A stretch of 64,000 bases of DNA. It comes from Syntrophobacterales bacterium. Lineage in GTDB: Bacteria; Desulfobacterota; Syntrophobacteria; Syntrophobacterales; Thermodesulforhabdaceae. This document shows, piece by piece, positions 3,571-56,638 of the stretch. Under the pieces are notes generated by a model. That model had not been told where the DNA came from. It searched no databases and was given only the letters and a program-made list of their open reading frames with translations. Position 1 is the first letter of the stretch, and the number at the start of each line of letters is the position of its first letter. The stretch lies in the NCBI GenBank assembly GCA_026417655.1, contig JAOACS010000031.1, positions 124,001-188,000 of the forward strand, written 5' to 3'. The translations under genes and the position numbers were made by a program.

Positions 3571-4743
3571 CTAATAGGGTGACCTAGCGAAGGGAACCTC
3601 CTTGACAACCATACCTGGTTTAACTTTAGCGATACCTTCCACTATAATGCGGTCTCCTGGAGAAAGTCCCGACGCCACCAACCATTTATCACCTATGGCT
3701 CTCTCTAAAACAATTGGACGCATTTCTACCTTATGTTCCCCATTAACCACCAACACAAAGGGATTATTCTTACGATCCCGCTGAACAGATTGCTGAGGAA
3801 CGAGAATCGCCCGATCGTTGATCCCTTCAAAAATAACTGCTCTAACATACATACCAGGGAGTAAAAGGAAATCTGGATTTGGTACTATAACTCGAACGGT
3901 TACAGAACCGGTTGTTGGATCTACAGTTACGTCGCGAAATTGGAGAAAACCTTCCCGTGGGTATATCGATCCATCTTCTAGAATAATCTTTGTGGGACTA
4001 CCCTTTTGCCCCTTTGGTTTAAAATTGCCACCCTCTAGGCGCTTCTTTAGCTGAAGGAGCTCTGTTGTAGACTGAGTTACATCTACATAGACAGGGTCGA
4101 GCTGATGGATAACAACAAGTGGTGTCTGCTGATAGGCCGTTACAATAGCCCCTTCAGTAACATTAGATTTCCCAATACGACCAGATATGGGAGCGGTAAT
4201 CTTTGTGTATCCTAGATTTATCTCAGCCGATTTAACAGAGGCTTTCCAATACTCGACCTCTGCTAGGGCCTGTTTAAGTGCTGCCGAGGCTTCATCGTAA
4301 TCCTGCTGACTCACGGCCCTCTCGGCAAGAAGATCCCTAAATCTTTCAACTTTCAGTTTTATCGCCGGAATTTGAGCCTCCGCCTTCCCAAGAGCTGCCT
4401 TGGCGTGAGAGAGAGCAGCCTCAAAGGGAGCGGGATCAATCTGATATAGGACCTGGCCTACCTTCACATCCGAACCTTCGTTAAAAAACCGCTTCACTAT
4501 AAGACCACTTACCTGGGGCCTCACTTCCGAAATGCGGAAGGAAGAAACTCTCCCCGGAAGTTCTGTAACAAGTTCCACAGCTTCCATAGAAACAGTTATG
4601 GTTGAGACTTCAGGAGTGAGGAGCTGTTCCTGAGACTGGGTCCTTCTTTCGCAACTTAAAGAAAAAAGAAAAAAAAGAAGAGAAAGAATTGTTAGAAATG
4701 TTTTAGGCCTTCGCATCACAAACAAACGTTCGTTTATATTCAT
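3571..4743 (-). CDS. RND efflux periplasmic adaptor (membrane fusion protein, AcrA/MexA family), lipoprotein
   Basis: The 390-residue adaptor links the inner pump to the outer channel. It begins with a lipoprotein-type signal (hydrophobic stretch LTILSLLFFLFSLSC with Cys about residue 30). The barrel-sandwich hybrid half-motif GLIVKRFFNEGSDVKVGQVLYQID, the helical hairpin (about residues 95-165), and the second lipoyl half with TAPISGRIGKSNVTEGAIV are in order. The C-terminal part with DRIIVEGIAKVKPGMVV is the membrane-proximal domain. ATG at 4743 is chosen because GGGGGAGG lies 9-10 nt upstream; the in-frame ATG at 4716 has no ribosome site. First gene of the efflux operon. An imperfect palindrome over codons 3-8 may be a repressor site. 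Confidence 0.93.
   Translation of the reverse strand: MNINERLFVMRRPKTFLTILSLLFFLFSLSCERRTQSQEQLLTPEVSTITVSMEAVELVTELPGRVSSFRISEVRPQVSGLIVKRFFNEGSDVKVGQVLYQIDPAPFEAALSHAKAALGKAEAQIPAIKLKVERFRDLLAERAVSQQDYDEASAALKQALAEVEYWKASVKSAEINLGYTKITAPISGRIGKSNVTEGAIVTAYQQTPLVVIHQLDPVYVDVTQSTTELLQLKKRLEGGNFKPKGQKGSPTKIILEDGSIYPREGFLQFRDVTVDPTTGSVTVRVIVPNPDFLLLPGMYVRAVIFEGINDRAILVPQQSVQRDRKNNPFVLVVNGEHKVEMRPIVLERAIGDKWLVASGLSPGDRIIVEGIAKVKPGMVVKEVPFARSPY
4722..4737. promoter_or_regulatory. imperfect 16-bp palindrome at start of efflux operon (possible TetR-family operator)
   Basis: AAACAAACGTTCGTTT is symmetric apart from one base pair and is centred on AACGTT. It lies just inside the first codons of the adaptor gene. 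Its size and layout resemble operators of TetR-type efflux repressors. No TetR gene is seen in the window, so this is inference. Confidence 0.35.
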
Positions 4744-54085: not shown

Positions 54086-54205
54086 AATCGCTCCTTTCTT
54101 TAAAGCTTTTTAGTTGCGAAGGGTTAAAAAATTTTATTATAAGTTCACATCTACGGTCTCAAAAATCATAAAATTTTTCAACTAGCAAAAAGGAGGCATA
54201 GATCC

Positions 54206-54409
54206 ATGGAATGCCGTAAGGAAGAAAATCTTAAAAAATGCACCTGCTCCTACGATCCCTGCAACAAAAAGGGAATATGTTGCGAGTGTTTAATGTATCA
54301 TCTCAGAAACCGACAACTTCCCGGTTGTTGCTTTCCTCGAGAAGCCGAAAGAACTTATGATAGATCCTTTGAACACTTTGCAAGACTAGTTATGGAGAGG
54401 AAAATTTAA
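54206..54409 (+). CDS. small cysteine-rich protein (DUF6485 type)
   Basis: A 67-residue cytosolic protein with eight cysteines spaced CTCSYDPCNKKGICCECLMYH and LPGCCFP, which could bind zinc or an iron-sulfur cluster. The pattern matches, as I recall, the DUF6485 family common in anaerobes. AAAGGAGG lies upstream. Function unknown. Confidence 0.75.
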   Translation: MECRKEENLKKCTCSYDPCNKKGICCECLMYHLRNRQLPGCCFPREAERTYDRSFEHFARLVMERKI

Positions 54410-54451: not shown

Positions 54452-54480
54452 TTGACAATTTACCGATATAGAGTTTAAGG
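54452..54480 (+). promoter_or_regulatory. candidate promoter for the phe leader
   Basis: TTGACA (54452-54457) with a 17-bp spacer to a weak TTAAGG (54475-54480). The predicted start near 54487 is 26 nt before the leader ATG. Confidence 0.5.
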
Positions 54481-54512
54481 GTAGATTCGATTAAGAAATG
54501 GAAAGGAAGATA

Positions 54513-54623
54513 ATGAAAAGCTACCCTGCAAGATACAACATTAGCTTATCTGCTAGTAGCCTTCTCTGGGGCCCTGGTTTTGGCTTCTTCTTCTTTTTTA
54601 GAAAGCCACCCGAGGGCTATTAG
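54513..54623 (+). CDS. pheL: phenylalanine leader peptide (pheL-type), 36 residues
   Basis: A short ORF runs MKSYPARYNISL...WGPGFGFFFFFRKPPEGY, stop at 54621-54623. Six Phe codons occur in seven positions (codon 23 and 25-29; 54579-54599), analogous to the E. coli pheA leader. AAGGA lies 5 nt before ATG 54513; an in-frame ATG at 54498 lacks a good site. Tandem alternative hairpins and a terminator follow, then the DAHP synthase/prephenate dehydratase gene. Confidence 0.85.
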   Translation: MKSYPARYNISLSASSLLWGPGFGFFFFFRKPPEGY

Positions 54624-54720
54624 CGCCTAAATAAGCATAAAGCCCCGGGTGGAAGCGATTCCCTCCGGGGTGGGAGGTTATAAATCATAAACCCCGAGAT
54701 AACTTCTCGGGGTTTTTTAT
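54606..54720 (+). promoter_or_regulatory. phenylalanine attenuator: competing helices
   Basis: Helix 1:2 is CCACCCG (54606-54612) + GGGCT (54614-54618) with AGCCC (54641-54645) + CGGGTGG (54646-54652), one bulged A. Helix 2:3 is CCCCGG (54643-54648) with CCGGGG (54665-54670), capped by GGAA-GCGA-TTCC, a GNRA tetraloop. Antiterminator 3:4 is CGGGGT (54666-54671) with ACCCCG (54691-54696), the terminator's 5' arm. A ribosome stalled on Phe codons leaves 1 free, so 1:2 forms, 3 pairs with 4 and transcription continues. A ribosome at the stop covers 1, so 2:3 forms and the terminator folds. The geometry is self-consistent. Confidence 0.78.
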
Positions 54721-54722
54721 TT
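54690..54722 (+). terminator. intrinsic terminator of the phe attenuator
   Basis: AACCCCGAG (54690-54698), loop ATAACTT, CTCGGGGTT (54706-54714), then TTTTATTTT, directly before the GGAGG of the fusion gene. Confidence 0.9.
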
Positions 54723-54736
54723 TGGAGGTAAAACCT

Positions 54737-56638
54737 ATGATACTCGTCATTAATAAGCAGGCCTCAGAAGACACAATAAATGAAATCAAGCGTCTTATTA
54801 GGGATAAGGGTTATACCCCCCGAGAGATTCACGGAACCGATGAACGTCTTATTGGAGTTGTAGGTTATTCTGATAAGGACAGATTAGATCCGGCGTATTT
54901 TGAAACCATTTCAGGAGTTTCCAAGGTAATTCCCGTAAGTAAACCCTATAAGCTCGTTAGTCGAGATTTCCATCCCGATCCTTCCAGAATTAAGATAGGG
55001 GATGTAGTAATAGGTGGTGACCGACTGGTAGTTATAGCAGGACCATGTAGTGTTGAGGATCGAAAGACAACCCTTGAAATCGCCCGTCTAGTTCGCCGCC
55101 ATGGGGCGGTATTATTTCGTGGTGGTGCCTTTAAGCCTAGAACATCTCCCTACAGTTTCCAGGGACTTGGAGAAGAGGGATTGAAAATCCTTGCCGAGGT
55201 CCGAGAAGAAACGGGGCTACGGATAGTATCGGAGATTACATCACCCGCTCAAGCCGATCTCATGATGAAATACGTCGATGTGGTGCAGATTGGAGCCCGT
55301 AATATGCAAAATTTTGAGCTCCTTAGGTGTGTCGGTAGAATGGGGAAACCGGTCCTTCTCAAAAGAGGGCTTGCTGCAACCATTGAAGAATGGCTCATGG
55401 CGGCAGAGTATATCCTTTCGGAAGGAAATGATCAGGTAATTCTATGTGAGCGAGGCATTCGCACCTTTGAACATTATACCAGGAATACTCTGGATCTTAC
55501 CGCCGTACCGGTAGTTAAAAAGCTTACCCACCTTCCAGTCATTGTGGATCCAAGTCACGCCACGGGGCTCAGGGAAAAAGTGCTTCCAATGGCCCGAGCC
55601 GCTATTGCGGCAGGAGCCGATGGAATTATGGTAGAGGTCCACATAGAACCGGATAGGGCCTTATCTGATGGTGCCCAGAGCCTCTATCCCGAGCAATTCG
55701 AACGACTCATGAGGGATCTTCATGTCATCTCGCCTGTTGTAGGAAAACAACTTGATTTTGATTACCTTCCCAAAGCTCGCTATCTAGCCCGAAAAGATCA
55801 TGCGGTAGAACCTATAGTGGTCTATTCAGGTGATCCTGGCTCTTTTAGCCACAAAGCGGCTCTACAATTCTTCGGCGAAACGGTTCCTATGAAAAACCTT
55901 TCCTCCTTCCGGGAAGTCTTTTCGGCAGTTGTGGAAGGCAGAGCCACATGGGGTGTTGTCCCCTTGGAAAACTCCCTCACCGGAAGTATCCACGTAAATT
56001 ATGATCTACTTATGGAATACGATCTCAATATTGTTGGAGAACTAACACTTAGGATAGTTCACAACCTTATAGGTATTGAGGGAACGACGTTGGATAAAAT
56101 CAGAACCCTCTATTCTCATCCTCAGGTCTTTGAGCAATGTAAGGAATTTCTTGATAAACACCCTCACTGGGATCTCGTTGCCTGCAAAGACACAGCAACG
56201 GCTGTAAAGCGCGTTGCCGAGAAAAATGATTATTCCTACGCTGCAATAGCAAGTGCTGAAGCGGCTAAGATATTCAACATGACTATAATTAAAGAAGGCA
56301 TAGAGACTCATCCCCGCAATTTCACAAGGTTTGTAATAATAGCCAGAGAAAAGGCCTTCGAAGGCTATAGAGACAAGTCCTCTCTTATTTTTTCTGTAAG
56401 CAACCGTCCTGGGGCTTTATACGAGGTCTTAAAAATTTTTGCAGAAAATGGAATAAACCTTGTGAAACTAGAATCCCGTCCCATTCATGGACGTCCATGG
56501 GAGTATCTCTTTTATGCTGATGTGGAGATCGATCTCGGAAGCCAAGAGCACTATCCTGTGGTTGAAGAGATCAAAGCCAGCACAGAGTTCTTCAAATTCC
56601 TTGGAAGTTACAGAAAGGGGATGCAGGTAACCGACTAG
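54737..56638 (+). CDS. aroF/pheA: DAHP synthase - prephenate dehydratase - ACT fusion
   Basis: A 633-residue fusion. Residues 1-340 are a type I-beta DAHP synthase with a ferredoxin-like N-domain: AGPCSVEDR, FKPRTSPYSFQGLG, QIGARNMQNFELL, LCERGIRTFE and VDPSHATG. It makes DAHP, the first shikimate step. Residues about 361-540 are prephenate dehydratase (VVYSGDPGSFSHKAALQFFG; GVVPLENSLTGS; RNFTRFVII), the route to phenylpyruvate. Residues 545-625 are an ACT domain with ESRP, the Phe sensor. No chorismate mutase is included. ATG at 54737 follows GGAGG by 8 nt. First and late pathway enzymes thus share one Phe-sensing chain, and the gene is under a Phe attenuator. Confidence 0.93.
   Translation: MILVINKQASEDTINEIKRLIRDKGYTPREIHGTDERLIGVVGYSDKDRLDPAYFETISGVSKVIPVSKPYKLVSRDFHPDPSRIKIGDVVIGGDRLVVIAGPCSVEDRKTTLEIARLVRRHGAVLFRGGAFKPRTSPYSFQGLGEEGLKILAEVREETGLRIVSEITSPAQADLMMKYVDVVQIGARNMQNFELLRCVGRMGKPVLLKRGLAATIEEWLMAAEYILSEGNDQVILCERGIRTFEHYTRNTLDLTAVPVVKKLTHLPVIVDPSHATGLREKVLPMARAAIAAGADGIMVEVHIEPDRALSDGAQSLYPEQFERLMRDLHVISPVVGKQLDFDYLPKARYLARKDHAVEPIVVYSGDPGSFSHKAALQFFGETVPMKNLSSFREVFSAVVEGRATWGVVPLENSLTGSIHVNYDLLMEYDLNIVGELTLRIVHNLIGIEGTTLDKIRTLYSHPQVFEQCKEFLDKHPHWDLVACKDTATAVKRVAEKNDYSYAAIASAEAAKIFNMTIIKEGIETHPRNFTRFVIIAREKAFEGYRDKSSLIFSVSNRPGALYEVLKIFAENGINLVKLESRPIHGRPWEYLFYADVEIDLGSQEHYPVVEEIKASTEFFKFLGSYRKGMQVTD

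Follow-up and report, generated by a model that had tools for sequence, protein, structure and literature searches.

A predicted phenylalanine attenuator before a DAHP synthase-prephenate dehydratase fusion gene, and tyrosine and tryptophan leaders before its paralogues, in Desulfobacterota

The window, as we call the whole 64,000-nucleotide stretch of DNA analysed here, carries a gene for a 633-aa protein in which a DAHP synthase (type I-beta, with a ferredoxin-like N-domain), a prephenate dehydratase and an ACT domain are fused. Upstream of this gene lie a short reading frame rich in Phe codons and a terminator, which raises the question of whether the fusion gene is controlled by the supply of phenylalanine and, if so, how the other DAHP synthases of the same genome are controlled. 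Our analysis indicates that the region is very probably a transcription attenuator of the ribosome-mediated kind, which responds to charged tRNA-Phe and regulates the fusion gene, and that it is one of three such leaders. From the sequence, its conservation, compensatory changes and the match between codons and pathway, we infer the stalling, the read-through and the order of folding that would occur in vivo.

The leader region of the fusion gene

The features of the locus are listed below, with coordinates given as positions within the window; all of them are on the plus strand.

54452-54457, plus strand: -35-like element, a perfect TTGACA (direct reading)
54500-54509, plus strand: SD-like GGAAAGGAAG of the leader ORF (direct reading)
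54513-54623, plus strand: leader ORF of 36 codons, ending GFGFFFFFRKPPEGY before the stop; Phe run kept at 45 of 46 Desulfobacterota fusion loci
54552-54561, plus strand: alternative upstream arm GCUAGUAGCC, pairing with GGGCUAUUAGC at 54614-54624 (fold of the full leader)
54579-54599, plus strand: Phe control codons, codons 23 and 25-29 (direct reading)
54582-54607, plus strand: hairpin spanning the Phe codons, formed by arm 0 (GGCUUC, 54582-54587) with GAAAGCC (54601-54607) (folding)
54606-54618, plus strand: arm 1 (CCACCCG-A-GGGCU), overlapping the end of the leader ORF; partner arm 2 (covariation, masked folding)
54641-54654, plus strand: arm 2 (AGCCCCGGGUGGAA); partner arm 1 or arm 3 (covariation)
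54659-54671, plus strand: arm 3 (UUCCCUCCGGGGU); partner arm 2, with a GCGA loop in the window, or arm 4, as antiterminator (covariation, masked folding)
54689-54699, plus strand: arm 4 (AAACCCCGAGA), 5' arm of the terminator; partner also arm 3 (terminator scan, covariation)
54705-54723, plus strand: arm 5 (UCUCGGGGUUU, 54705-54715) and U tract (54713-54723), forming with arm 4 the intrinsic terminator 4:5 (folding, covariation)
54737-56638, plus strand: DAHP synthase-prephenate dehydratase-ACT fusion gene (domain matches)

Domain matches of the fusion gene (DAHP_synth_FXD; DAHP_synth_1, E 3.4e-86; PDT, 4.5e-64; ACT, 1.2e-10) agree with the identity assigned to it in a first-pass annotation of this DNA, which had also described a leader of 36 codons in which six codons within a stretch of seven are Phe. 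Direct reading gave the same leader: the ORF starts with ATG at 54513, ends with a stop codon at 54621-54623 and encodes MKSYPARYNISLSASSLLWGPGFGFFFFFRKPPEGY, in which residues 23 and 25-29 are Phe. The locus thus contains a short, putatively translated ORF with an SD-like site and a run of codons for a product of the pathway. In the promoter scan, the TTGACA at 54452-54457 had no good -10 element at the standard spacing and no full sigma-70 match was found, and the promoter of the window leader is at this point suggested. The sequence TCTTGACA upstream of the leader is common to the window and a relative of the same genus (L003). We also observed a small Cys-rich ORF (CTCSYDPCNKKGICCECLMYHLRNRQLPGCCFP...) at 54200-54409, which ends shortly 5' of the attenuator.

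Downstream of the leader ORF come five arms whose pairings exclude one another, then the terminator (54689-54715) and the fusion gene, and none of 200 dinucleotide shuffles was as stable as the leader fold (z = -4.1). An intrinsic terminator, whose stem (54689-54699/54705-54715) is followed by TTTTTTATTTT, therefore stands between the leader ORF and the structural gene. Its 5' arm had been proposed to double as part of an antiterminator, and indeed arm 4 can pair with either arm 3 or arm 5. The competing helices described earlier, one of them with a GCGA tetraloop, were likewise found, the GCGA cap being present on the helix 54642-54654/54659-54671, but the tetraloop is variable in relatives. 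As the loop sequences of relatives differ, GCGA was ruled out as a conserved feature.

Conservation and covariation of the leader in relatives

We gathered orthologues of the fusion gene from 60 related genomes and a public genome collection, and scored a Phe run, defined as 4 or more Phe within 8 codons of a short frame, in the 46 Desulfobacterota fusion loci with at least 450 nt of upstream sequence; expectations were taken from dinucleotide shuffles of the same sequences. Homologous loci lacking the run had been named beforehand as an observation that would speak against an attenuator. The run was present 5' of the fusion gene at 45 of the 46 loci (6.75 expected), and runs of at least 5 Phe were present at 39 (1.25 expected). 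The exception, L010, is also Phe-rich and encodes FGWFSCFLGGFFLMNPPG. A Phe-run leader was found at none of 46 fusion genes of other phyla (almost all Spirochaetota), and leaders related to the Phe leader of the window were found in Desulfobacterota loci only. Likewise, a terminator lies between leader and fusion gene at 44 of the 46 Desulfobacterota loci compared with 4 of the 46 loci of other phyla. Named loci with the Phe leader include Desulforhabdus, Syntrophobacteraceae, Desulfobacteraceae, Desulfatitalea, Desulfobacula and Desulfotignum, and the Phe attenuator is therefore distributed over several Desulfobacterota families.

The geometry of the leader is conserved as well. From the middle Phe codon to the arm 1 core there are 15 nt in the window (median 19.5 and range 12-24 in 34 loci), the stop codon lies 15 nt past the start of the arm 1 core (median 13), and arm 2 starts 19 nt past the stop codon (median 19). 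These results bear on whether the locus could be a plain terminator preceded by an incidental T-rich frame, with no sensing of an amino acid. The region is T-rich, and about 15% of loci (6.75 of 46) reach 4 Phe or more when shuffled. However, runs of at least 4 and of at least 5 Phe are both far more frequent than shuffles predict, the distances that separate the Phe codons from arm 1 and the stop codon from arm 2 are conserved, and sister genes (see below) have Tyr or Trp codons, which are not T-homopolymers, at the equivalent place. These observations make this explanation very improbable.

The elements conserved are thus the Phe codons, the arms and the spacing between them, with arm 1 lying within the coding region beside the stop codon. 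These observations count against a riboswitch, a T-box, a protein-bound leader or some other RNA sensor governing the terminator independently of the leader peptide. Several stable competing helices do precede the terminator, as such a sensor would have, yet the leader matched no Rfam family at the gathering score: neither a T-box nor any other Rfam cis-regulatory element was found at that score, and tRNAs were the sole Rfam matches in the window. We consider such a sensor highly unlikely.

To compare the arms between loci, we delimited five of them in each of 34 loci and concatenated them as blocks without gaps, and pairs were counted for two mutually exclusive structures: set A, consisting of helices 1:2 and 3:4, and set B, consisting of helices 2:3 and 4:5. 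With registers set by hand and by pattern, which somewhat favours the structure, 90.8% of cells were paired in set A and 90.2% in set B. In set A, 15 cells had changed on both sides compared with 4.7 in shuffles (0 of 500 as high), with a covariation score of 0.220 compared with 0.174. For set B, both-sided changes affected 15 pairs and 92 cells, compared with 28.7 in shuffles (0 of 500), with a score of 0.362 compared with 0.215 (0 of 500 as high). When the partners were slid by one to three columns, pairing fell to 28-62% and the scores were much lower. The compensatory changes that had been anticipated in the leader helices were found in helices 1:2 (where both-sided changes occur at four pairs), 2:3 and 4:5, whereas helix 3:4 is preserved in 96% of cells with almost no sequence variation (CGGGG with CCCCG), so that little covariation can be seen there. 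Arm 2 changes in step with each of its partners, arm 1 and arm 3, as in the variants CCCGGGUGG, CCGGAUGG and CCGAAUGG (its forms include GGGUGG, GGAUGG and GAAUGG), as would be expected if it had to pair with each of them in turn. The arms were seen again in a check set of 13 loci outside the alignment, in which some of the arm boundaries picked by pattern are off (e.g. arm 4 of L018).

The covariation also bears on whether the leader peptide might be a small functional protein and the terminator a separate element. The end of the peptide (FRSVHP or PPG) does appear conserved in parts of the set; however, it is encoded by the stretch that forms arm 1 and changes along with arm 2, and the N-terminal parts of the peptides have no similarity between genera. 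We accordingly give a functional peptide very little credence and retain the attenuator as the preferred reading. In the Desulfobacteraceae-type leaders of L047, L049-L053, L057 and L091, helix 2:3 has a T run of its own behind it, and these leaders thus contain terminators in tandem.

Ribosome position and the predicted switch

We modelled the effect of the ribosome by masked folding, in which the mask ends 12 nt beyond the A-site codon and the folded transcript ends with arm 4, arm 5 not yet being present. With the ribosome stalled on a Phe codon, helix 3:4 was predicted in 26 of the 34 loci, whereas with the ribosome at the stop codon it was predicted in 2 and helix 2:3 in all 34. For the window leader, stalling at Phe codons two to four gave 9 pairs of 1:2 and 7.7 of 3:4, compared with 11.6 pairs of 2:3 and 0.1 of 3:4 with the ribosome at the stop codon. 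The logic put forward in the first-pass annotation, that stalling on Phe frees arm 1 and leads to read-through, was thus reproduced in these predicted folds, which, together with the covariation, point to an exclusive antiterminator that depends on the position of the ribosome. The remaining 8 of the 34 relatives had no switch in equilibrium folding.

When no ribosome was included, 28 of the 34 species folded into 2:3, mostly with an extra helix between arm 0 and arm 1 (mean 9.9 pairs); the arm at the Phe codons in Desulfobacterales is GGACGCUUC. The arm 0 hairpin is weak in the window but strong in most relatives, and 0:1 pairing in the window, by the definition used for the 34 loci, amounted to 0.2 pairs. 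In the absence of translation, folds ending at arm 4 favoured 1:2 with 3:4 in the window and in a few of its near relatives; in the complete leader of the window, 54552-54561 paired with arm 1 and the terminator was formed. The full stalled transcript at equilibrium still contains the terminator, and read-through therefore requires helix 3:4 to be in place by the time arm 5 is transcribed. Attenuators are generally assumed to depend on the antiterminator forming first.

The following sequence of events is predicted. When Phe is ample, the ribosome would reach the leader stop codon and cover arm 1, so that arms 2 and 3 would pair, arm 4 would be free for arm 5 and the terminator would end transcription. 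When Phe is scarce, the ribosome would stall on the Phe run, about 15 nt 5' of arm 1; arm 1 would then pair with arm 2, arm 3 would take arm 4, and RNA polymerase would continue into the fusion gene. In most relatives, when translation does not occur, the extra arm at the Phe codons would hold arm 1 and thereby lead to 2:3 and the terminator. The leaders of most relatives may thus act as a six-arm relay, in which 0:1, 2:3 and 4:5 would result in termination, and 1:2 and 3:4 in read-through.

Leaders of the other DAHP synthases and comparison with known systems

As a control, we scanned the same genomes 5' of their stand-alone DAHP synthase genes. The genome of the window contains two more DAHP synthases, on contigs C18 and C21. 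That on C18 heads trpE-trpG-trpD-trpC-trpF-trpB, with MVIIDVSLNVRGWWWCSIGAHHGYAVG and two tandem terminators upstream of it; that on C21 comes before tyrA and has MNCNSWQSFSFLYYYPYYHRREGAPGMR and a terminator upstream of it.

L162 2915-3110 (contig C18): Trp-run leader (RGWWWC; leader 2915-2998) and two tandem terminators
L163 3675-3835 (contig C21): Tyr-run leader (YYYPYYH; leader 3675-3761) and terminator before the DAHP synthase and tyrA

The first-pass annotation had recognized the Phe leader but neither the upstream arm nor the Trp and Tyr leaders of the genes on C18 and C21. In relatives across the order, a Trp run precedes 29 of 32 DAHP synthase genes followed by trpE (1.0 expected) and a Tyr run 29 of 31 followed by tyrA (0.05 expected), whereas among 14 DAHP synthase genes without such a neighbour we found no Tyr run, one Trp run and one Phe run. 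Terminators showed the same distribution (30 of 32 and 29 of 31, respectively, compared with 2 of 14). All three kinds of leader occur in 12 of the 19 members of the order with a readable Phe leader. In the DAHP synthase tree the three classes cluster strongly, with 9 changes for five labels compared with 82 in shuffles, and the tyrA class forms one side of a starred branch. Simple masked folding gave no switch in the Tyr leader of the window's genome and no order of events in its two-terminator Trp leader.

The Tyr leader differs between genomes with and without the fusion. Its best 12 residues hold 2-4 Phe (mean 2.7, e.g. FFTGFYFYYGWY) in 12 genomes in which no fusion was found, compared with 0-2 (mean 0.9) before DAHP synthase-tyrA in 16 genomes with the fusion (Mann-Whitney p = 4e-5, with genomes that are not independent and some of which are incomplete). 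Because of this dependence and incompleteness, we regard the evidence for retuned codons, namely a Tyr leader that appears richer in Phe where the fusion was not found, as suggestive. Mixed Phe-Tyr leaders (FFTGFYFYYG) were observed before DAHP synthase-tyrA in L228, L229 and L231 (genomes G005, G019 and G007), where no Phe-leader fusion was found. In the fusion-less genomes G006 (L156, L147) and G028 (L157, L143), a Phe/Tyr-rich leader lies 5' of a stand-alone aroQ-pheA (MVCTTRFFFYFYCTRGAKQR, MKVERYFMNFYYYPFPLRGKTAQACI).

Overall, these patterns make it likely that in this order of Desulfobacterota each of the three DAHP synthase paralogues is tied to one end product by its own attenuator, and that the codons are retuned when an isozyme is missing. 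If so, feedback at the entry point of the pathway would be split three ways by leader peptides, including a tyrosine-specific attenuator, and in one order the entry to aromatic biosynthesis would be shared by three isozymes, each seemingly under the control of a different amino acid by way of its leader peptide. The set would offer an example of duplicated enzymes coming to serve separate end products, and the match of codon to branch over about 110 genes makes the prediction directly testable.

The enterobacterial pheA attenuator (pheL leader) comprises a Phe-rich peptide, competing hairpins and a terminator before the prephenate dehydratase gene. The window leader shares these elements, but its target is a DAHP synthase-prephenate dehydratase fusion that lacks chorismate mutase, in Desulfobacterota, and the Desulfobacterota leaders have five to six arms in relay compared with four in pheA; the window leader consequently lies outside the enterobacterial pheA type, which has four arms before aroQ-pheA in Gammaproteobacteria. 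The his attenuator resembles it in having a relay of alternating hairpins that ends in a terminator. His_leader (RF00514) was the best sub-threshold Rfam match (54608-54722; 33.2 bits compared with a gathering score of 49), but the codons of the window are Phe and not His, and the likeness is one of architecture only; moreover, the his-like six-arm relay is that of most relatives, whereas the extra arm is weak in the lineage of the window. In E. coli, the three DAHP synthases AroG, AroF and AroH are assigned to Phe, Tyr and Trp. Those isozymes are distinguished by allosteric control and the TyrR and TrpR repressors, whereas here each gene has its own aromatic leader and terminator.

For Corynebacterium glutamicum, an attenuator with aromatic codons (Phe-Tyr-Phe) has been proposed 5' of the DAHP synthase gene aroF (PMC4046766); that is a single short FYF motif in another phylum, in contrast to three isozymes with separate leaders. 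A study from 2005 listed predicted attenuators before tyrA-containing operons, including the Desulfovibrio vulgaris supraoperon (PMC1173090). Our literature search, in which specialist coverage was limited and which leaves priority unproven, returned no Phe attenuator on a DAHP synthase-prephenate dehydratase fusion, no Tyr-specific leader and no three-way arrangement. The sequence evidence strongly supports the window leader as a genuine Phe attenuator, which would represent a known mechanism in a new lineage and on a new target. A survey of Rfam leader motifs suggested a possible origin of amino-acid attenuators in Gammaproteobacteria and few transfers since (PMC3766115), and it is against this suggestion that a Phe attenuator conserved across several Desulfobacterota families is to be set.
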